Shown piece after piece: positions 30,423 to 58,660 of a stretch of DNA of 64,000 nt. The DNA comes from Soonwooa buanensis. Its GTDB lineage: Bacteria; Bacteroidota; Bacteroidia; Flavobacteriales; Weeksellaceae. The stretch covers positions 310,001-374,000 of the forward strand of contig NZ_FUYZ01000002.1 of assembly GCF_900167905.1 (NCBI RefSeq), in the 5' to 3' direction. The translations under genes were made by a program, and so were the position numbers. Within the stretch, counting starts at the first letter, position 1; the number at the start of each line of letters is the position of its first letter. The notes below the pieces were generated by a model. The model saw nothing but the letters and a program-made list of their open reading frames with translations, had not been told where the DNA came from and did not search any database.

Positions 30423-30977
30423 TTAATGGTTGATACTTCCGTCTTCTAGTTGATAAAGATCCTTTAGGTTTCTTCCCAACTCATCATAATCCAATCCGTA
30501 GCCTAAAACAAATTTGTTTGGGATTTCTTTCCCAACATAATCGATCTTGAATTCTTTTTTGTAAACATCCGGTTTTAGTAACAATGATGCTACTTTGATA
30601 GACTTCGGACGTTGCGTTTCTTTAAAATATGTGAAAAGATTTTCGATCGTGTTACCTGTATCCACAATATCTTCCATCAAGATGATGTGGCGGTCTTTGA
30701 TGTCTTTTGTTAGTTCCATTTCTTTGAAGACAATCCCCGAAGATTCTGTCCCAACATAAGAACTCATTTTGATAAAACCAAGTTCGCACTCGCCAGGATA
30801 AGCTTTGATAAAATCAGAGAAAAACTGAATAACACCGCTTAAAACCCCGATGAAAACTGGACGTTCATCTTTGTATTCTTCATAGACTTCTTTCGCCATT
30901 CTATCGACGATTGTAAGGATTTCTTCGTGCTTTAGATAAGGGACAAAGGATTTGTCGTGAACTTTTATACTTTCCAT
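30423..30977 (-). CDS. hpt: Hypoxanthine phosphoribosyltransferase
   Basis: 184 residues. PRPP motif RHIILMEDIVDTGNT (acidic pair then DTGNT) and KVASLLLKPDVYK fit the purine-salvage phosphoribosyltransferases that make IMP/GMP from free bases. First gene of the hpt-adk-obgE run; a CAAAATTA at 30995-31002 is a candidate minus-strand -7 element. Divergent from the T9SS protein gene. Confidence 0.93.
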   Translation of the reverse strand: MESIKVHDKSFVPYLKHEEILTIVDRMAKEVYEEYKDERPVFIGVLSGVIQFFSDFIKAYPGECELGFIKMSSYVGTESSGIVFKEMELTKDIKDRHIILMEDIVDTGNTIENLFTYFKETQRPKSIKVASLLLKPDVYKKEFKIDYVGKEIPNKFVLGYGLDYDELGRNLKDLYQLEDGSINH

Positions 30978-31060
30978 AATTTTTTAAGAAAGCACAAAAT
31001 TAAGCATTTTAATTTATTATTAATAATTAGAAATATGACTTATGTAAGAATATTAAAATT

Positions 31061-31093
31061 TTTGAGTCTGTTTGAAAACTTTATTTATTTTTG
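31061..31093 (+). promoter_or_regulatory. Predicted promoter of T9SS cargo gene
   Basis: TTTG (31061-31064), 21 nt, TATTTTTG (31086-31093), then C; a good Bacteroidota consensus, 20 bp before the ATG at 31113. Confidence 0.7.
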
Positions 31094-31112
31094 CAGCCCT
31101 TTAACTATTAAT

Positions 31113-32006
31113 ATGAATAAAAAATTACTTATTTCTACACTTTCGATATTGTTGTTTAGCAATACACTTTCGGCACAAGAAACCAAAATTTCTTTTGAAA
31201 CTTCGGAAGGCTTTAACCTAGGAAACTTCCATGGACAAAAAGGTTGGAGCAATTGGGGTTATGTTGATGAGACACATTCGCAAGTTGTTAATACGATTGC
31301 AACGGACGGCGTAAACTCGGTTTCTGTTATCGCGGATGAGGCTCAAGAAGAGAATTGGGGTGGCATTTTCCACGATGCGCCGGCTTATAGTAGAATGTCA
31401 ATTTCGGCAGATATTTATCTGGATAATCTCAATTCTGCTGATTACGATATGTTGTCGCTATACAGTATGGATGTTGATGAATACGAGCGTCTTGGAGGAT
31501 TTTATTATAGTTATGATGCGACTTTGGAAGTTGGTGACGACACGACAATTGTTACTAAAACTTGGCAAGCTAAAAAATGGTATAACCTAAAAGTAAATAT
31601 CGATTTTACTACCAAAAAGATTGAGTATTATATTGACAATGTTAAGATTACAACATCGACTTTTAATTCTCAAATTAATTCGATTAAAGAGTTTGATTTT
31701 GAGTTCGATAACTATAAATCGGGTTTCAAAGTGGATAATGTAAAAATCCAAAATCTTGACAATCTGGCAACTTCGGAAATTGATAAAAATGTGATTCAAA
31801 TTTATCCAAATCCAAGTTCTGATTTTATCAATTTTAAAGGCATAAAAGATGTAGAGCAAATTTCGATTTTCGATGGAAGCGGAACTTTAATTTATCAATC
31901 AAATTCTTTTGCGCCGATCGATGTCAAAACATGGAAATCTGGTTTGTATTTAATTAAGATTAAAACTAAAAATACAGAAGCTACAACTAAATTTATCAAA
32001 CAATAA
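31113..32006 (+). CDS. Secreted protein with T9SS type A sorting domain
   Basis: About 297 residues. Started at 31113 to give the signal peptide MNKKLLISTLSILLFSNTLSA; an upstream frame extension would run through the promoter box. The middle (~residues 25-205) is a jelly-roll-like single domain with many Trp/Tyr (GFNLGNFHGQKGWSNWG), resembling a LamG-type lectin fold. The last ~75 residues (VIQIYPNPSSDFINFKG ... GLYLIKIKTKN ... FIKQ) are a classical T9SS type A C-terminal signal, so the protein is exported by the type IX system and probably attached to the cell surface or released. Ligand unknown. Confidence 0.85.
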   Translation: MNKKLLISTLSILLFSNTLSAQETKISFETSEGFNLGNFHGQKGWSNWGYVDETHSQVVNTIATDGVNSVSVIADEAQEENWGGIFHDAPAYSRMSISADIYLDNLNSADYDMLSLYSMDVDEYERLGGFYYSYDATLEVGDDTTIVTKTWQAKKWYNLKVNIDFTTKKIEYYIDNVKITTSTFNSQINSIKEFDFEFDNYKSGFKVDNVKIQNLDNLATSEIDKNVIQIYPNPSSDFINFKGIKDVEQISIFDGSGTLIYQSNSFAPIDVKTWKSGLYLIKIKTKNTEATTKFIKQ

Positions 32007-32072: not shown

Positions 32073-32102
32073 TTTGTCGGTTAAAAATTATTTCTAAATT
32101 TG
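32073..32102 (+). promoter_or_regulatory. Promoter of the his operon
   Basis: TTTG (32073-32076), 18 nt, TAAATTTG (32095-32102) followed by C: a complete Bacteroidota -33/-7 promoter 19 bp before the leader-peptide ATG. Confidence 0.75.
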
Positions 32103-32121
32103 CTTCATCAAAATAACAGAA

Positions 32122-32178
32122 ATGTATAACAATCAATTACATCATTATTATCATCATACTTGCACTCAGGCGAGCTGA
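32122..32178 (+). CDS. hisL: his operon leader peptide (18 aa, four His codons)
   Basis: ATG at 32122 opens an 18-codon frame ending in TGA at 32176-32178: MYNNQLHHYYHHTCTQAS. Residues 7, 8, 11 and 12 are His (all CAT), flanking two Tyr. It is too short for an ORF finder but is correctly placed between the promoter and an intrinsic terminator in front of hisG. In attenuation systems a ribosome stalls on such codons when charged tRNA-His is scarce. The symbol hisL is used by analogy with enterobacteria; the peptide is not homologous in sequence. Confidence 0.85.
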   Translation: MYNNQLHHYYHHTCTQAS

Positions 32179-32240
32179 TAATGATATGTAGTTGACAAAA
32201 AATATCAAAATCCCGTTTGAGTAAATCGAACGGGATTTTT
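32141..32240 (+). promoter_or_regulatory. his attenuator: alternative antiterminator and terminator RNA structures
   Basis: Antiterminator: ACTCAGGCG (32164-32172, codons just after the last His) pairs with CGTTTGAGT (32214-32222), nine pairs including two G-U. This uses the last bases of the terminator's 5' arm and its loop, so the two structures exclude each other. Early helix: ATCATTAT (32141-32148, within the His codons) pairs with ATAATGAT (32178-32185). A ribosome stalled at the His codons leaves 32164-32172 free (read-through); one that reaches the stop codon covers it (termination). Confidence 0.8.
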
Positions 32241-32242
32241 TA
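32207..32242 (+). terminator. his attenuator terminator
   Basis: AAAATCCCGTT (32207-32217) / AACGGGATTTT (32229-32239), 11 perfect pairs with an 11-nt loop, followed by T residues; 53 nt before hisG. Confidence 0.95.
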
Positions 32243-32276
32243 TTTTTAATCGGCAGAATCCGCGATTTACTCAGGC
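32215..32276 (+). promoter_or_regulatory. Third competing helix downstream of the his terminator
   Basis: The terminator loop plus three bases of its 5' arm (GTTTGAGTAAATCG, 32215-32228) can pair with CGATTTACTCAGGC (32263-32276), 14 pairs including two G-U. The word ACTCAGGC occurs both here and in the leader peptide region. Confidence 0.5.
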
Positions 32277-32293
32277 TTTAATTCAAAAATAAA

Positions 32294-33151
32294 ATGAGTA
32301 AACTAAAAATTGCCATTCAAAAAAGCGGACGACTTTACGAAGATTCCATCAAGCTTTTGCGCGACTGCGGCATTTCTTACAATGACGGAAAAGACCAACT
32401 GAAGGTTTCTGTAGACAATTTTCCGCTTGAGATTTTCTATCTGCGCAACTCCGATATTCCGCAATATCTCGAAGATGGCGTCGTAGATGTCGCGATTGTT
32501 GGCGAAAATCTTTTGATTGAAACTTCTAAGAAAATTGATGTTGTCGAATATCTAGGATTTTCGAAATGTCGTGTATCGATGGCAGTTCCCAAAGATATTG
32601 ATACAGATGATTTGTCTTATTTTAATTCAAAGAAAATTGCTACATCTTACCCGAATACGCTTCGTCGCTTTCTGAACGAGAATAACATTAAAGCCGACAT
32701 TCACGTTATTTCTGGTTCGGTGGAAATTGCTCCAAATATTGGTCTTGCGGACGGCATTTGTGATATTGTTAGTTCGGGCTCAACTTTGTTTAAAAATGGA
32801 CTTCGCGAGACAAAAGTGATTCTAAAATCTGAAGCTGTTTTAGCAAAAAATCAAAATCTTTCAGAAGATAAAGAGGCGATTTTAGGGAAATTGTTATTCC
32901 GAATTCAAGCGGTTCTGAAAGCTAAAAATTCAAAATATATTTTGCTAAATGTCCCGAACTCTAAGATTGAATCGATTTCTAAAATCTTGCCCGTTCTTAA
33001 AAGTCCGACTGTTATTCCTTTAGCGGAAGAAGGTTGGAGCAGCATACATTCTGTTATTGACGACAATCGTTTTTGGGAAGTTATTGACGAGCTAAAACAG
33101 GCTGGTGCGCAGGATATTTTGATTATTCCAATTGATAAAATGGTGATTTAA
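32294..33151 (+). CDS. hisG: ATP phosphoribosyltransferase (long form)
   Basis: 285 residues, the HisZ-independent long form with a C-terminal ACT-like regulatory domain (~residues 210-285, ILPVLKSPTVIPLAEEGW). Catalytic part: KIAIQKSGRLYEDSIKLLRDCG, VDVAIVGENLL, and the PRPP loop ADGICDIVSSGSTL. First step of histidine synthesis (ATP + PRPP), feedback-inhibited by histidine in the family. First structural gene after the attenuator, 10 bp before hisD. Confidence 0.96.
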   Translation: MSKLKIAIQKSGRLYEDSIKLLRDCGISYNDGKDQLKVSVDNFPLEIFYLRNSDIPQYLEDGVVDVAIVGENLLIETSKKIDVVEYLGFSKCRVSMAVPKDIDTDDLSYFNSKKIATSYPNTLRRFLNENNIKADIHVISGSVEIAPNIGLADGICDIVSSGSTLFKNGLRETKVILKSEAVLAKNQNLSEDKEAILGKLLFRIQAVLKAKNSKYILLNVPNSKIESISKILPVLKSPTVIPLAEEGWSSIHSVIDDNRFWEVIDELKQAGAQDILIIPIDKMVI

Positions 33152-33161
33152 ATTTTTTATT

Positions 33162-34454
33162 ATGATAATTACTAAATACCCACAAAAAAGCGATTGGAAA
33201 AATCTTGTGCAAAGACCAACGCTGGAAAAACAAAACTTAAAATCCTTAATTGCTGAAGTTTTTGACAATGTTTCTAAAAATGGAGATGAAGCTCTGAGAT
33301 TTTATTCTAAAAAATTTGATAGCGCCGAAATTGCAGATTTTAGAGTTTCAAGAAATGAAATTGAAACAGTGAAAAGTTTAATTTCCAATGATTTGAAAAA
33401 AGCGATTCAACAAGCGAAATCCAATATCGAAATTTTTCATGCGTCACAAAAAGAACCCATTAATAAAATCGAAACAACTTCTGGTGTGACTTGTTGGCGA
33501 GAATCTCGTGGTATCGAGAAAGTCGGAATTTATATTCCTAGCGGGACGGCACCTTTGTTTTCGACGGTTCTTATGTTGGCGATTCCTGCGAAATTGGCTG
33601 GTTGCAAAGAGATTATTTTGTGCTCGCCGCCAAATGAGAAAGGTGAAATTAATCCTACGATTTTGTACGTGGCAGAACTTTGTGGTGTAACGGAAATTTT
33701 TAAAGTTGGTGGTTCGCAAGCGATTGCTGCAATGACTTTCGGGACGGAAACAATTTCTCAAGTTTATAAAATTTTTGGTCCAGGAAATCAATTTGTAACC
33801 ACTGCGAAAGAGATGGCAACCGAATTTGGTGTTGCGATCGATATGCCTGCTGGTCCGAGCGAAGTTTTGGTAATCGCCGATGAGCAGGCGATTCCAGCAT
33901 TTTGTGCAGCGGATTTGTTATCGCAAGCAGAACACGGAGCGGATAGCCAAGTTGTTTTTATTTCTGACAACCAAAAGTTTTTTGAAGAAACTTTAAACGA
34001 GTTAAAATCGCAATTGCAGAATTTACCTCGCAAAGATTTAGCAGAAAAAGCCATTGAAAATAGTCAATTTATTTTGGTCGAAAATTTATCCGAAGCTTTT
34101 GAAATCTCCAATCTTTATGCGCCAGAGCATTTGATTTTAGCGATTGAAAATTCAGAGGACTGGACTTCTAAAATTGCCAATGCTGGTTCGGTTTTTTTAG
34201 GAAATTATTCTTGCGAAAGTGCTGGCGATTACGCGTCGGGAACCAATCATACTTTGCCGACTAATTCGTTTTCGAGAAGTTATTCTGGGGTTTCTTTGGA
34301 TTCTTTTTTAAAGAAAATTACTTTTCAAAATATTACAAAACAAGGTATCCAAAAGCTTGGAAAAACCATCGAAATCATGGCAGAAGCAGAAGGACTTTTT
34401 GCGCATAAAAATGCTGTGACACTTCGATTAAATCAAATTAATCAAAACAATTAA
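33162..34454 (+). CDS. hisD: Histidinol dehydrogenase
   Basis: 430 residues, usual length. Signatures: GIEKVGIYIPSGTAPLFSTV, GPGNQFVTTAKEMA, DMPAGPSEVLVIADEQA, DLLSQAEHGADSQ (zinc ligands Gln/His), YAPEHLIL and SAGDYASGTNHTLPT. Catalyses the last two NAD-dependent oxidations to histidine. Gaps to hisG and hisC are 10 bp each, so it is mid-operon. Confidence 0.97.
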   Translation: MIITKYPQKSDWKNLVQRPTLEKQNLKSLIAEVFDNVSKNGDEALRFYSKKFDSAEIADFRVSRNEIETVKSLISNDLKKAIQQAKSNIEIFHASQKEPINKIETTSGVTCWRESRGIEKVGIYIPSGTAPLFSTVLMLAIPAKLAGCKEIILCSPPNEKGEINPTILYVAELCGVTEIFKVGGSQAIAAMTFGTETISQVYKIFGPGNQFVTTAKEMATEFGVAIDMPAGPSEVLVIADEQAIPAFCAADLLSQAEHGADSQVVFISDNQKFFEETLNELKSQLQNLPRKDLAEKAIENSQFILVENLSEAFEISNLYAPEHLILAIENSEDWTSKIANAGSVFLGNYSCESAGDYASGTNHTLPTNSFSRSYSGVSLDSFLKKITFQNITKQGIQKLGKTIEIMAEAEGLFAHKNAVTLRLNQINQNN

Positions 34455-34464
34455 ATCTTAAAAA

Positions 34465-35481
34465 ATGGAAAATCCGATGCAAAAATTTGTTCGACCAAAT
34501 ATTCTTGCGCTTCAACCTTATATTAGTTTTAGAGATACTTTGTCAGACGGCGATTACACGCTTTTGGATGCTAACGAAAATCCGTTTGGGACTTTTAATC
34601 GTTATCCAGATTCGACTCAGAAAAAATTAAAGCAAAAACTTTCCGAAATCAAAAATGTACCAAGTTCACAAATTGCTCTAGGAAATGGAAGTGATGAGCT
34701 GATTGACCTTATTATTAAAATTTTTTGTGAGCCTAAAAAAGATGCAATTGTTGTGATGAATCCGTCTTTTGCGATGTATAGTTTCTATGCAACAATTAAT
34801 GAAAACAAGATTGTCACACTTGATTTAGATTCTAATTTTCAATTGCAAAAAGATGAATTTTTAAATAAAACGAAAGATTCAAAAGCGAAAGTTTTGTTCT
34901 TGTGTTCGCCCAACAATCCAACAGGAAATTCAATTGACGATTTAGAATTTTATATTAAAAACTTTAATGGAATTGTCGTGGTTGATGAAGCTTATATTGA
35001 GTTTTCAAATCAAAAATCGATTGTAGAAAAATTAAATGAATTTGAAAACCTAATTGTTTTACAAACCCTTTCAAAAGCTCGTGCTTTAGCGGGTTTGCGT
35101 ATTGGAATGGCATTGTCTTCGGAGTTTATTATTTCTTTAATTAACAAAACAAAAGCGCCTTACAATATTAGTGAAGTCAATATGAGAACTGCGCTTCAAG
35201 AATTGGAAAAAGTCGATGAATACGAAAAGCGTTTACAAGAAGTTTTGATTCAGAAAAATATTTTAAAACAAGCTTTTGAAAATTCTTCAAGTATTAAAAA
35301 AGTTTATAATTCTGAAGCTAATTTTTTCTTGGTGGAAGTTGACAATTGTGAAGCTTTTTACGAAGATTTAATTCAAGCAAAAATATTGTGTAGCAAACGT
35401 TTTCCTGCGATTCCAAATGCGTTAAGAATCAATGTTGGAAGTGCCGAAGAAAATCAAAAATTGATAAAAATTTTAAGTTAA
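34465..35481 (+). CDS. hisC: Histidinol-phosphate aminotransferase
   Basis: 338 residues, PLP fold type I. Visible: LDANENPFG at the start, NGSDELIDLIIKIF, CSPNNPTGNSI, VVDEAYIEFS and the PLP Lys in LQTLSKARALAGLRIG. Transaminates imidazole-acetol phosphate with glutamate. In operon order between hisD and hisB; an alternative start four codons later (34477) is possible. Confidence 0.95.
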   Translation: MENPMQKFVRPNILALQPYISFRDTLSDGDYTLLDANENPFGTFNRYPDSTQKKLKQKLSEIKNVPSSQIALGNGSDELIDLIIKIFCEPKKDAIVVMNPSFAMYSFYATINENKIVTLDLDSNFQLQKDEFLNKTKDSKAKVLFLCSPNNPTGNSIDDLEFYIKNFNGIVVVDEAYIEFSNQKSIVEKLNEFENLIVLQTLSKARALAGLRIGMALSSEFIISLINKTKAPYNISEVNMRTALQELEKVDEYEKRLQEVLIQKNILKQAFENSSSIKKVYNSEANFFLVEVDNCEAFYEDLIQAKILCSKRFPAIPNALRINVGSAEENQKLIKILS

Positions 35482-35549
35482 GATTTTAGAAGTACGATTG
35501 ACGATTTCTATCATTCGTAAATTAAAAATTGTAAATCATACATAAAAAA

Positions 35550-36683
35550 ATGAAAAAAATATTGTTCATAGATCGAGACGGAACCTTGATTTTGGAACCC
35601 GAAGATTACCAAGTTGACAGTTTCGAAAAGTTAGAATTTTATCCTGAAGTTTTTACTTATTTGGGGAAAATAGCGAAAGAATTGGATTTCGAATTGGTGA
35701 TGGTAACTAACCAAGATGGATTGGGAACCGAAGCGCATCCAGAGGAAAAATTTTGGCCGATCCAGAATTTCGTTATTAAAGCTTTTGAAAATGAATCTGT
35801 GAAATTCGATGCCATATATATTGATAAAACTTTTGCTCATGAAAATGCACCAACGCGAAAACCAGAAACAGGTTTGTTGACAAATTATATTAATAATCCA
35901 AATTATGATTTAACGAATTCTTTTGTGATTGGCGATCGAATTACTGATGTTAAATTGGCGCAGAATCTTGGTTCAAAAGCATTTTTTATTGCAAATGACG
36001 AAACTTTAGGCGCAAACGAAATCGAGCAAAATGAAAATCTTGACGAAGTTATTGTGTTAAAAACAACCTCTTGGCAAACGATTTATGAATTTTTGAAACT
36101 TAAAAATCGTTCGGCTTCCATCGAAAGAAATACCAACGAAACAAAAATAAAAATTGAGTTAAACCTCGATGGAACTGGCAAGTCTGAAATCTCAACTGGG
36201 TTTCCTTTTTTTGATCACATGCTTGATCAAATTGCGCGTCACGGCCAAATGGATTTGAAAATAAAAGTTGATGGCGACCTGCAAGTTGATGAGCATCACA
36301 CGATTGAAGATACGGCGATTGCTTTGGGAGAAGTCTTTTCCAAGGCTTTGGGCGACAAGCTGGGAATCGAGCGTTACGGTTTTACGTTACCAATGGATGA
36401 TTGTCTTGCGCAAGTTGCAATTGATTTTGGAGGTCGAAATTGGTTGGTTTGGGATGCGAATTTTAAACGTGAAATGATTGGACAAATGCCAACGGAAATG
36501 TTTTATCACTTTTTTAAATCCTTTACCGATGGCGCAAAAGCCAATCTTAATATCAAAGCGGAAGGCAGCAATGAACACCACAAAATAGAAGCGATTTTTA
36601 AAGCTTTTGCAAAAGCCATTAAAATGGCTGTAAAACGAGATTCAGAAAAAATGATTTTACCATCAACAAAAGGAATGCTATAA
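35550..36683 (+). CDS. hisB: Bifunctional histidinol-phosphatase / imidazoleglycerol-phosphate dehydratase
   Basis: 377 residues. N-terminal HAD phosphatase (DRDGT at 8-12, VTNQDG, RKP at 103-105, [14 protein letters not shown]) fused to an IGPD domain from ~residue 185 ([49 protein letters not shown], with the metal-binding His clusters). It performs steps 6 and 8 of the pathway. Unlike E. coli HisB, the loop before RKP reads [14 protein letters not shown] and lacks the Cys/His zinc ligands. A ~70-bp AT-rich spacer separates it from hisC. Confidence 0.95.
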
Positions 36684-36759
36684 ATTTTAGATTGTAGAAT
36701 TACGATTGATGAATTAAGAAATCGTAGATAGTAAATCAAAAATCGCAAATTAAAAAATA

Positions 36760-37359
36760 ATGATTGCAATAATAAAATACAACGCTGGGAATACGAAATC
36801 GGTTTTTAATGCGGTGACACGTTTGGGTTACGAAGCCGTTATCACCGATGATTTCGAGGTAATTAAAAGTGCTGAGAAAGTCATTTTTCCAGGTGTTGGT
36901 GAGGCGAGTTCAGCGATGAAGTATCTTAAAGAAAAAGGTTTAGATAAAATTATTAAAAACCTAAAACAACCGACTCTAGGAATTTGTCTTGGGCAACAAT
37001 TGATGTGCGAATTTTCGGAAGAAGGGAATGTGGATTGTTTAGGAATTTTTCCGATTCAAGTTAAAAAGTTTCCTGCAAAAGATATTGTCCCACACATGGG
37101 TTGGAATACGATTTATGACTTTCAAAATGTCATTTATAATCTTCCTGCAAAATTATTTGATAAGGTTAATACGAATTCTGATGTCTATTATGTCCACGGT
37201 TACTATTGCGAATTGTCCAATTTCACGATAGCTAAGACGGATTATATTTTAGAATTTTCGGCGGCACTTAACAAAGATAATTTTTATGCAACGCAATTTC
37301 ATCCTGAAAAATCAGCGGGTATCGGAGAACAAATTTTAAAGAACTTTCTAGAAATGTAA
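36760..37359 (+). CDS. hisH: Imidazole glycerol phosphate synthase, glutaminase subunit
   Basis: 199 residues, class I amidotransferase: oxyanion strand FPGVGEAS, nucleophile Cys in TLGICLGQQLM, and the His-x-Glu dyad in ATQFHPEKS. Supplies ammonia to HisF. 76 bp after hisB; followed by a 7-bp tandem repeat before hisA. Confidence 0.95.
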   Translation: MIAIIKYNAGNTKSVFNAVTRLGYEAVITDDFEVIKSAEKVIFPGVGEASSAMKYLKEKGLDKIIKNLKQPTLGICLGQQLMCEFSEEGNVDCLGIFPIQVKKFPAKDIVPHMGWNTIYDFQNVIYNLPAKLFDKVNTNSDVYYVHGYYCELSNFTIAKTDYILEFSAALNKDNFYATQFHPEKSAGIGEQILKNFLEM

Positions 37360-37364
37360 TTGTT

Positions 37365-37413
37365 TATGAATTATGAATTATGAATTATGAATTATGAATT
37401 ATGAATTATGAAT
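37365..37413 (+). repeat. Heptanucleotide microsatellite TATGAAT x7
   Basis: Seven perfect contiguous TATGAAT units in the 95-bp hisH-hisA spacer. Each unit contains ATG; frames are closed quickly, so no peptide is encoded. Confidence 0.97.
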
Positions 37414-37454
37414 TAGGTTTGATAATTATTAAATCGTAAAATAAAAATCAAAAT

Positions 37455-38168
37455 ATGAGAATTATCCCTGCAATAGATATCATCGACGGAAAATGTGTAA
37501 GACTTTCGCAAGGCGATTACAGCACAAAAAAAATATACAACGAAAATCCTTTAGAAGTTGCAAAAGAGTTTGAGGATTTCGGAATTGAATATTTGCACTT
37601 GGTAGATTTGGATGGTGCAAAATCCAAGCAAATTGTCAATTACAATATCTTGGAACAAATTACTTCTAAAACCAACCTTAAAGTTGATTTTGGAGGCGGC
37701 ATAAAATCTGATGACGACGTTAGAATTGCTTTCGAATGTGGAGCTAATCAAATAACTGGAGGAAGTATTGCGGTTCAAAATCCGACTTTATTTGAAGAAT
37801 GGATTCTTAAATATGGAAATGAAAAAATCATTTTGGGAGCTGATGCAAAAGACCGAAAAGTTGCGACGCATGGCTGGTTAGAGACTTCGGAACTAGATGT
37901 TGTCGAGTTTATTAAAAACTATAAACAAAAAGGAATTGAATATGTGATTTGTACAGACATTGCAAAAGATGGGATGTTACAAGGTGCTTCGAATGATTTG
38001 TATGCTGAGATTTTAGAAAATACTGAAGTCAAGCTAATTGCTTCTGGAGGCGTGTCTTCAATTGATGATTTAATAAAATTAAAGGAACTCGGTTGTGAAG
38101 GCGCAATCCTTGGGAAAGCAATTTATGAAGGAAGAATTTTATTAAAGGATTTGAAACAACTGTTTTAA
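37455..38168 (+). CDS. hisA: Phosphoribosylformimino-AICAR ribotide isomerase (HisA)
   Basis: 237 residues, beta/alpha barrel. [18 protein letters not shown] carries the first catalytic Asp; [13 protein letters not shown] and [14 protein letters not shown] are the two phosphate-binding loops; [12 protein letters not shown] carries the second catalytic Asp. Isomerises ProFAR to PRFAR. hisF starts 2 bp after its stop. Confidence 0.96.
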
Positions 38169-38170
38169 TT

Positions 38171-38923
38171 ATGCTGAAGAAAAGAATCATTCCGTGTCTT
38201 GATATTAAAGATGGAAGAACGGTGAAAGGCGTCAATTTTGTTGGCTTGCGCGATGCTGGCGATCCTGTAGAATTGGCGAAAAAGTATGTTGACGAAGGCG
38301 CTGACGAATTGGTATTTTTGGATATTTCGGCAACTTTAGAAAAACGAAAAACCCTCGCCGAAATGGTAGAGAAAATTGCGGCTGCGATTAATATTCCGTT
38401 TACAGTTGGAGGCGGGATCAATTCTGTGGAAGATGCTTCGACGGTTATTAATGCTGGTGCGGACAAAGTTTCGGTGAATTCTTCTGCGGTAAAAAATCCG
38501 CAATTGATTGCAGATTTGGCGGCACAGTTTGGTTCTCAATGTGTGGTTGTTGCGGTGGATACGCGCGATGTCAACGGAAATCAAAAAGTTTTTGTGAATG
38601 GTGGAAAAGTCGAAACCGATTGGGGAACTTTGGATTGGGTAAAGGAAGTTGAAAAACTCGGCGCTGGCGAAATTCTGTTAACTTCGATGGACGGTGACGG
38701 GACAAAAGCAGGTTTCCGAATTGATATTACAAAACAAGTTTCCGAAAGTGTTAACATACCCGTCATCGCTTCTGGCGGTGCCGGAAAAATGGAAGATTTT
38801 GCGGAAGTTTTTAGCAAAACAAAAGCGAGTGGCGGATTGGCGGCAAGTGTTTTTCACTTTGGTGAAATTCCGATTCCTGAGCTTAAAAATTATTTAAAAC
38901 AACAAAACATAGCAATACGATGA
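38171..38923 (+). CDS. hisF: Imidazole glycerol phosphate synthase, cyclase subunit
   Basis: 250 residues, barrel related to His[20 protein letters not shown] (catalytic Asp about 11), [26 protein letters not shown] (catalytic Asp about 130) and [14 protein letters not shown]. With HisH converts PRFAR to IGP and AICAR. Overlaps hisIE by 4 bp (ATGA), indicating coupling. Confidence 0.97.
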
Positions 38924-39528
38924 ACATTGATTTTAATAAATCTAGTGATGGTTTGGTTCCTGTGATTATTCAGAATTACCTTAATAATAAGGTTTTGATG
39001 TTGGGTTATATGGATGAAGAAGCTTTTAATAAAACTCAAGAACTTGGAAAAGTGACATTTTTTTCGCGTTCCAAAAATAGATTGTGGACAAAAGGAGAGG
39101 AGTCAGGTAATTTTTTAGAAGTAAAATCGATGGCTGTTGATTGCGATAATGATACGATATTAATAAAGGCAAAACCCCACGGACCGACTTGTCACACAGG
39201 ATCTGTGACTTGTTTTAATGAAGTTTCGAATCATGGATTTATTTATGAGTTGGAACAAACTATCAACGACCGAATTGATTTTGATGATCAAGAATCTTAT
39301 ACCAATAAATTGTATAAAAAAGGACTCAACAAAGTTGCGCAAAAAGTGGGTGAAGAAGCTGTGGAATTGGTGATAGAAGCAAAAGACAACAACGATGATT
39401 TGTTTTTAAATGAAGCCGCAGATTTGATGTATCATTATTTAATTCTTTTAAAAGCTAAAGGTTTTCAACTTGAAGATGTTGAAAATGTTTTAAAATCTAG
39501 GGAAAACGCACCTCGACGACCAGAATAA
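38920..39528 (+). CDS. hisI: Bifunctional phosphoribosyl-AMP cyclohydrolase / phosphoribosyl-ATP pyrophosphatase
   Basis: 202 residues, the HisIE fusion. HisI part: [30 protein letters not shown] and the metal-binding [22 protein letters not shown]. HisE part from ~residue 110: [30 protein letters not shown]. Carries out steps 2 and 3. Last gene of the operon; the downstream spacer holds an interspersed repeat. Confidence 0.96.
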
Positions 39529-39547
39529 CTCAACGGCGCGGAAAATT

Positions 39548-39622
39548 GCGTTAGGGATTGCAGCGAAAATCCTTTGCTGAAAGCAAAGATTGTAGCGGAA
39601 AGCCCGACCGAAGGGAACGCCC
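39548..39622. repeat. Interspersed hairpin element with GCGTT/AACGC ends
   Basis: Outer arms GCGTT (39548) and AACGC (ends ~39620); inner stem CTTTGCT (39572-39578) / AGCAAAG (39582-39588) with a GAA loop, extended by AAT/ATT; conserved-looking words GGGATTGCAGCG, GATTGTAGCGG and AGCCCGACC. It lies 19 bp after the his operon and ~65 bp before the next promoter. Confidence 0.7.
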
Positions 39623-58493: not shown

Positions 58494-58526
58494 TGCAATT
58501 CGCTGCAAAAAAATAATTATTAAAAA

Positions 58527-58660
58527 GTCCCGAAGGGACGACTTGACAAAGGATAGGAGGTAACTCCTATCGAAAACGGGACGATTTAATAAAGGATAGG
58601 AGGAGACTCCTATCAAAAACGAGACGATTTAACAAAGAATAGGAAGAATTCCTATTCGTA
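58527..58660 (+). repeat. Array of four hairpins upstream of argC (43-nt tandem unit)
   Basis: A GTCCC-gaa-GGGAC hairpin (58527-58539) is followed by three 43-nt units starting at 58538, 58581 and 58624. Each carries a stem: GATAGGAG/CTCCTATC with loop GTAA, the same stem with loop GAGA, and GAATAGGAA/TTCCTATTC with loop GAA. The third unit has paired (compensatory) changes. It ends ~15 bp before the argC ATG. Confidence 0.9.

Follow-up and report, generated by a model that had tools for sequence, protein, structure and literature searches.

What limits the expression of the histidine operon in a flavobacterium, and at how many steps? In the window (the whole stretch of 64,000 nt of Soonwooa buanensis DNA analysed here), the his operon is preceded by a region that an earlier note had read as a complete histidine attenuator. 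The leader, antiterminator strand and terminator of that reading are all present, and hisG opens a complete his operon. Two things were missed by the note: the element is widespread before hisG in Bacteroidia, and a fifth RNA strand near the hisG start codon is complementary to the terminator. We ask here whether the attenuator is conserved, how it may work and what the fifth strand may add to it.

The leader and its operon

The leader ORF has 18 codons, four of them CAT (codons 7, 8, 11 and 12), just as had been claimed; its position and those of the other elements are given in Table 1. The proposed promoter also stands: its two elements precede the ORF, and the downstream one fits TAnnTTTG, which we take to be the Bacteroidetes promoter consensus and to which we assign it. 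Of the 71 non-redundant Flavobacteriales loci, 58 have the same motif no more than 75 nt from the start of the leader, where 3.0 would be expected; the median distance is 18 nt. The leader RNA has a predicted folding energy of -52.1 kcal/mol, against a mean of -27.3 in shuffled sequences (z -6.6), and downstream of it NCBIfam models identify a complete his operon of eight genes, hisG-D-C-B-H-A-F-IE.

Table 1. Positions in the window of the elements of the his leader and of the operon behind it.
Feature	Position	Strand	Details
Bacteroidetes-type promoter	32073-32102	+	TTTG at 32073-32076; TAAATTTG at 32095-32102, fits TAnnTTTG
Leader peptide ORF MYNNQLHHYYHHTCTQAS	32122-32178	+	ATG at 32122, TGA at 32176-32178; 18 codons
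Protector hairpin	32133-32195	+	32133-32153 (His codons) pairs with post-stop 32176-32195 (MFE fold)
Regulatory codons CAT CAT TAT TAT CAT CAT	32140-32157	+	Seen in the sequence; equivalent cluster kept in relatives
Strand 2, antiterminator 5' half ACTCAGGCG	32164-32172	+	Pairs with CGTTTGAGT at 32214-32222; 9 pairs, two G-U
Intrinsic terminator hairpin (strands 3 and 4)	32207-32239	+	14 pairs, 5-nt loop; T-rich tail to 32247
Strand 3	32214-32228	+	Terminator 5' arm, loop and start of 3' arm; can pair with strand 2, 4 or 5
Strand 5 CGATTTACTCAGGC	32263-32276	+	14 nt complementary to 32215-32228; ends 17 nt before the hisG ATG
hisG, first gene of the putatively controlled operon	32294-33151	+	NCBIfam TIGR00070, 180.2 bits (cut-off 75.75)
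hisD, hisC, hisB, hisH, hisA, hisF, hisIE	33162-39528	+	NCBIfam

Three other features of the window may be recorded here. Upstream of the attenuator lies an ORF (30957-32006, +) whose product carries a T9SS type A sorting domain (TIGR04183, 51.7 bits). A Flavo-1 RNA (RF01705, 54.8 bits; 39543-39613, +) follows the his operon, starting 15 nt beyond the end of hisIE. An Acido-Lenti-1 RNA match (RF01687, 40.1 bits, gathering score 37) lies at 58526-58571 (-), in a host outside the groups that its name suggests.

Spread among Bacteroidia

We searched the regions upstream of hisG for short ORFs (60 codons or fewer) in which some stretch of eight residues holds at least three His. Such a leader was found in 182 of 190 regions, window included, from Bacteroidia genomes with hisG, whereas dinucleotide shuffles give one in 1.6-7.7% of cases, depending on the group. 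The window's own family contributes 112 of these regions, with a leader in 79/79 of the close-relative set and in 32/33 of the further genomes; the counts are 21/21 in family f2, 12/13 in other Flavobacteriales and 38/44 in the other orders of the class. The sample consists of genomes with a hisG match only (64 of the 148 genomes from the class and 73 of the 108 from the order), and the 80 regions taken from the class and order matches were picked for spread, so that the small-genome family f71 is represented once (L170, without a leader). The eight regions lacking a leader are L129, L170, L171, L193, L198, L201, L210 and L211. The close relatives are 80 loci, nearly all of Chryseobacterium and also of Epilithonimonas and Cloacibacterium, whose hisG is 77-83% identical to that of the window; L005, with only 99 nt before hisG, was left out. 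The typical leader of the remaining 79 is MKPNFLTVHHYHHHLC. Beyond the His cluster the peptides vary widely in sequence, so the His codons are what is kept.

An RNA model was made from 34 Flavobacteriales leaders. At E<=1.2e-5 it has 42 matches in 98 genomes, one per genome, and a comparison of places puts each of them directly upstream of the hisG match of that genome; no other gene under a his-type leader appears among the matches at this threshold (weaker ones score 45.2 bits or less). At the same threshold the model has no match in 23 genomes having hisG, namely 17 of family f71 together with G447, G451, G455, G457, G462 and G471, five of which nonetheless have a His-rich ORF (L160 in G447, L161 in G451, L164 in G455, L165 in G462 and L167 in G471). 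The predicted attenuator is a feature of most Bacteroidia hisG loci examined and not a one-off. A chance origin of the element in the window was considered and is rejected by the shuffles and by conservation.

Within family f1, and even within genus g27, hisG falls into two divergence classes (81% identical to the window in G169, 58-60% in four others), which suggests replacement of the his operon; both classes of the family carry the leader. The only other genome of the window's genus in the set, G001, has no hisG match, and hisG is split into two matches at G079:C1:786927-789518 (about 1.7 kb between them) and at G065:C1:366633-367477.

Terminator, antiterminator and protector

Between 31900 and 32400 no terminator-like site other than the hairpin of strands 3 and 4 was found (0.3 expected). 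The terminator and its T run before hisG are thus where the earlier note had placed them, and the stem is longer than it had stated, with 14 pairs and not 11. A terminator between leader and hisG was found in 175 of the 182 leader-bearing regions. The seven others (L178, L195, L199, L205, L207, L208 and L209) were omitted from the pairing tests, and merging loci above 80% identity reduced the 175 to 102, i.e., 71 from Flavobacteriales and 31 from other orders, the latter including doubtful leaders (e.g., L202 and L204) that may be due to chance. Across the alignment of the 71 non-redundant Flavobacteriales loci, the terminator stem accumulates 90 double-sided changes, against 33.9 in shuffles, spread over 12 of its 14 pairs. 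Six loci of other orders (L195, L199, L205, L207, L208 and L209) have a His-rich ORF before hisG and no intrinsic terminator detected; they are possibly translational attenuators, or their terminators may have been missed by the simple scan.

The antiterminator proposed in the note is found in the window with the 9 pairs of Table 1, and its 3' half does lie inside the terminator. Its 5' half, strand 2, is located just after the His codons, as claimed: in the 70 of 71 Flavobacteriales loci scored, it starts at a median of 6 nt past the last His codon and ends at a median of 1.5 nt before the end of the stop codon. It would therefore be free when a ribosome stalls on the first His codons and covered by a ribosome at the stop codon. 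The duplex of strands 2 and 3 is on average stronger between cognate partners (-12.7 kcal/mol in Flavobacteriales) than between foreign (-10.3) or shuffled ones (-7.3), and the same holds in other orders (-12.8 against -10.4 for foreign partners); in each of the two sets, 0 of 20000 permutations reached the cognate mean. In an alignment of 34 loci, hand-picked among those with strand 5, 88.5% of the cells of this helix are paired, against 28-48% when the strands are slid. Covariation is weak: double-sided changes are limited to the pair 39-100 (12 cells against 4.9), and of five alignment measures for this pairing, two are not above shuffles in the 34 loci. The check that the note had named, conservation of the His codons and stems in relatives, is strongly positive, and the antiterminator stem is its weakest part.

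A further predicted hairpin pairs the His codons with the sequence following the stop codon, and in the MFE fold its apex (32159-32174) holds most of strand 2. This protector duplex has -11.9 kcal/mol against -6.7 when shuffled, with p<=0.05 in only 35/71 Flavobacteriales and 17/31 other loci.

The region combines 1) clustered His codons; 2) an intrinsic terminator; and 3) an antiterminator that excludes the terminator and whose 5' half lies within reach of the ribosome. We regard it as very probably a ribosome-mediated histidine attenuator. When charged His-tRNA is low, the ribosome would stall on the CAT codons, open the protector hairpin and free strand 2, which would take strand 3; the terminator would not form and the his operon would be transcribed. 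When histidine is ample, the ribosome would reach the stop codon and cover strand 2, letting strands 3 and 4 form the terminator, which presumably ends transcription in vivo.

A fifth strand before hisG

Side-by-side reading of relatives showed that a stretch shortly before the hisG start codon, strand 5, is complementary to the 5' arm and loop of the terminator, so that strands 2, 4 and 5 overlap in their use of strand 3. An alignment-free comparison of the 71 non-redundant Flavobacteriales loci gives a mean duplex energy between strands 3 and 5 of -15.0 kcal/mol for cognate partners, -10.3 for foreign and -6.3 for shuffled ones. Pairing has p<=0.05 in 60 of these loci and reaches -12 kcal/mol or better in 59, and the cognate mean was reached in 0 of 20000 permutations. 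Leaving out most Chryseobacterium keeps the signal (N 56; -14.5 against -9.3), and so does taking only loci outside the window's family (N 27; -12.1 against -7.8, 16 of them at -12 or better). Of 656 cells in the alignment, 90.9% are paired, and only 27-40% when the strands are slid by 1-3 columns, a control that, contrary to permutations and shuffles, removes the effect of relatedness. With relatedness kept, 8 of 11 pairs change on both sides, against 5.0 in shuffles (a number reached by 3/500), and 46 cells have double-sided changes where 12.6 are expected. Examples of the pairing are GAGACAAT with ATTGTTTC in L146 (one G-U), GAGCACA with TGTGCTC in L152, GAGTAATATCAG with CTGATATTACTC in L134. 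In one locus, L155 (G518), a second hairpin with a T run (CCCGTGAAAACGGGATTTTTTTT) lies past the his terminator, where relatives have strand 5.

The position of strand 5 is tighter with respect to the start codon than to the terminator. In the 59 loci with pairing at -12 kcal/mol or better, to which the distance, folding and pseudoknot figures refer (the other counts keep the 12 weaker loci), its end lies at a median of 16 nt from the ATG (IQR 15-19, range 13-34), within 12-20 nt in 47 and at 29-34 nt in a few, and the distance from the terminator has a median of 23 nt (IQR 16-40, range 5-47).

Could this complementarity be incidental, the locus being an ordinary attenuator and strand 5 a shared ancestral motif or a protein-binding site in the DNA? 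Some similarity is indeed expected, given that a CTCARRC-like core is common to strands 5 and 2 in many loci. Yet loop positions largely outside the helix of strands 2 and 3 covary with strand 5 (columns 20-23 with 95-98), foreign partners pair worse and the gap between terminator and strand 5 ranges from 5 to 47 nt, which makes this explanation very improbable. Selection on the pairing of strand 5 is, from these alignments, something of which we are confident.

Three controls were negative. First, the pairing is absent in the other orders (cognate -5.07, foreign -5.21, N 31, permutation p 0.65), where one locus is at -12 or better. Second, pairing with the first 60 nt of hisG is not above that of foreign partners (-8.7 against -9.1, p 0.96). 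Third, the equivalent pairing between terminator and gene start in Flavobacteriales trp leaders is not above chance (cognate -5.4, foreign -5.7; p<=0.05 in 4/49), and we reject, on these 49 leaders, the idea that strand 5 is a general feature of flavobacterial attenuators. The pairing is therefore confined, in these samples, to the stretch before the start codon in Flavobacteriales his leaders. The trp set comes from regions upstream of trpE; an ORF holding at least two Trp codons occurs in 49/51 of them (a raw count, given with no chance level); in 10 trpE regions without an in-frame ATG, the start of the profile match was used instead. The window's genome has a Trp attenuator of its own before trpE (L218; G000:C11, about 291600), with leader MNLSLNKNWWWSSKSWSRS and terminator AAAGACTTTGACG..CGTTAAAGTCTTT. 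A strand-5-like match at 12 of 14 positions in L218 (p 0.01) is treated as chance because relatives do not share it. In the same genome, ilvD has no match, and the region of thrA, read from a provisional gene start, has no clear leader.

A second possibility accepts the attenuator and gives strand 5 another role, in mRNA stability, in processing or in insulating the hisG start, or else explains it by template-switch mutation without selection. It draws on the 12 of 71 Flavobacteriales loci in which the pairing is weak or absent, which do indicate that strand 5 is dispensable, and on the preference of nested folds for the plain terminator hairpin. Against it stand the distance to the start codon, tighter than that to the terminator, and the pairing that holds outside the window's family (N 27); a purely mutational cause would also not predict absence as the rule in trp leaders with similar hairpins. 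We consider this possibility unlikely.

How strand 5 may act

Since strand 5 is made after the terminator has already been transcribed, it cannot affect termination of its own transcript. Its place of action would be the read-through mRNA, and there the form of the pairing matters. A simple nested hairpin of strands 3 and 5 is disfavoured as a lock: in nested folds the terminator outcompetes strand 5 (mean probability 0.90 against 0.05), so a lock needs a pseudoknot. On average, 97% of the terminator loop bases pair with strand 5. We calculated the energy of the pseudoknot as the sum of the lower terminator stem, the helix of strands 3 and 5 and a general pseudoknot penalty of 9.6 kcal/mol, and by this rough estimate it surpasses the hairpin alone in stability in 58 of 59 loci. 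The loop pairing and the energy estimate lead us to read strand 5 as part of a pseudoknot in the read-through mRNA. Two traits of an H-type pseudoknot of the kind that controls translation initiation are observed, the covarying complementarity between a loop and a downstream strand, and the fixed place of that strand near the start codon.

In Flavobacteriales, strand 5 of the read-through transcript would pair with the loop and upper stem of the terminator, and the resulting pseudoknot would most likely keep ribosomes off hisG, its 3' side sitting where a starting ribosome would bind. Because strand 2 needs many of the strand 3 bases used by strand 5, stalling on the His codons would release both brakes at once. 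As a whole explanation of the locus, an attenuator with a terminator-loop pseudoknot locking hisG translation on the read-through mRNA is the reading we favour, and we think it rather likely. On the narrower point of whether strand 5 is a translational lock on hisG, our judgement is about evenly divided. More tentative still, and a little short of even, is the full generalisation: a dual-output attenuator, in which the strand freed by stalling prevents both the terminator and the pseudoknot between terminator loop and hisG start, as a trait of Flavobacteriales his operons at the level of the order.

The complementarity could also serve in trans. Strand 5 would then be a target on the full-length his mRNA for the loop of the terminated leader RNA, proposed to be abundant when histidine is plentiful, and the pairing would repress hisG or mark the mRNA for decay. 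The RNA of the Sinorhizobium trp attenuator is also said to act in trans. For the leader peptide of that attenuator, action in trans is described in the part of PMC7298713 considered here. It suits such a role that strand 5 is complementary to the loop and arm of the very hairpin that would end the terminated RNA. But every full-length mRNA also carries that loop in cis, where proximity would be expected to favour it, and we hold action in trans to be improbable.

Implications

A his attenuator is predicted at many Bacteroidota hisG loci, and the alignments can be used for annotation. If the proposed role of strand 5 is true, the loop of an intrinsic terminator also folds onto a translation start, and a single event sets both mRNA output and translation. 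The terminator hairpin would be reused as a translational lock, with transcription and translation answering to one ribosome position, and this would be a layer added in Flavobacteriales atop an attenuator also seen in other Bacteroidia orders. Bacteroidota genes mostly start without a Shine-Dalgarno sequence. In such a group, strand 5 would offer a way to study how initiation is gated by structure close to the start codon.

Relation to known systems

In the his operon of enterobacteria, a leader peptide with clustered His codons sets an antiterminator against a terminator upstream of hisG. The window's leader resembles that attenuator (RF00514, His_leader) in all of these traits, and differs from it by its four His codons being split by two Tyr, by a strand 2 lying within the end of the ORF and by the fifth strand. 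In the window the RF00514 model gives 30.9 bits (E 0.0015 for 211 nt), under its gathering score of 49, so that membership of that family is rejected; PyrG_leader, an unrelated model, reaches 31.6 bits on this same terminator. None of 20 Bacteroidia leader regions reaches the gathering score of any Rfam model.

Comparative predictions of amino-acid attenuators were reportedly made by Vitreschak et al. 2004, whose abstract is said to name Bacteroidetes/Chlorobi among the groups covered, and by Lopatovskaya et al. 2010. Given the coverage ascribed to the former, the basic attenuator may have been predicted before. In the parts of PMC9413887 considered here, his attenuators are predicted in the Bacillus cereus group, Eubacteriales and Erysipelotrichales. 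Like the window's, these have a short leader before alternative hairpins, there with an unbroken run of three to five His codons; unlike it, they belong to Firmicutes, and no downstream strand is mentioned in those parts. The main text of PMC9413887 has no word beginning with Bacteroid. Within the literature covered, and as far as the parts of the papers considered go, the groups with described leader-peptide attenuation are Proteobacteria, Actinobacteria and Firmicutes, and for Bacteroidota there are only the short ORFs reminiscent of leader peptides in the long 5' UTRs of B. thetaiotaomicron (PMC7366714). A his attenuator in Bacteroidetes is not described in the parts considered of PMC4833913, PMC2965389, PMC2864571, PMC7366714, PMC9413887, PMC8632094, PMC6429828 and PMC3766115. 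A literature search whose scope left out most subscription journals gave no title or abstract start on a Bacteroidetes his attenuator.

A parallel to the proposed double control is the trp operon of B. subtilis, where TRAP is a single sensor that governs transcription termination and also how the first gene is translated. The window's attenuator would likewise couple transcription termination and first-gene translation to a single sensor. The means differ: TRAP is a protein sensor and works on translation through a hairpin that blocks the Shine-Dalgarno sequence, whereas in the window the sensor would be the position of the ribosome and the block a pseudoknot formed with the terminator loop.
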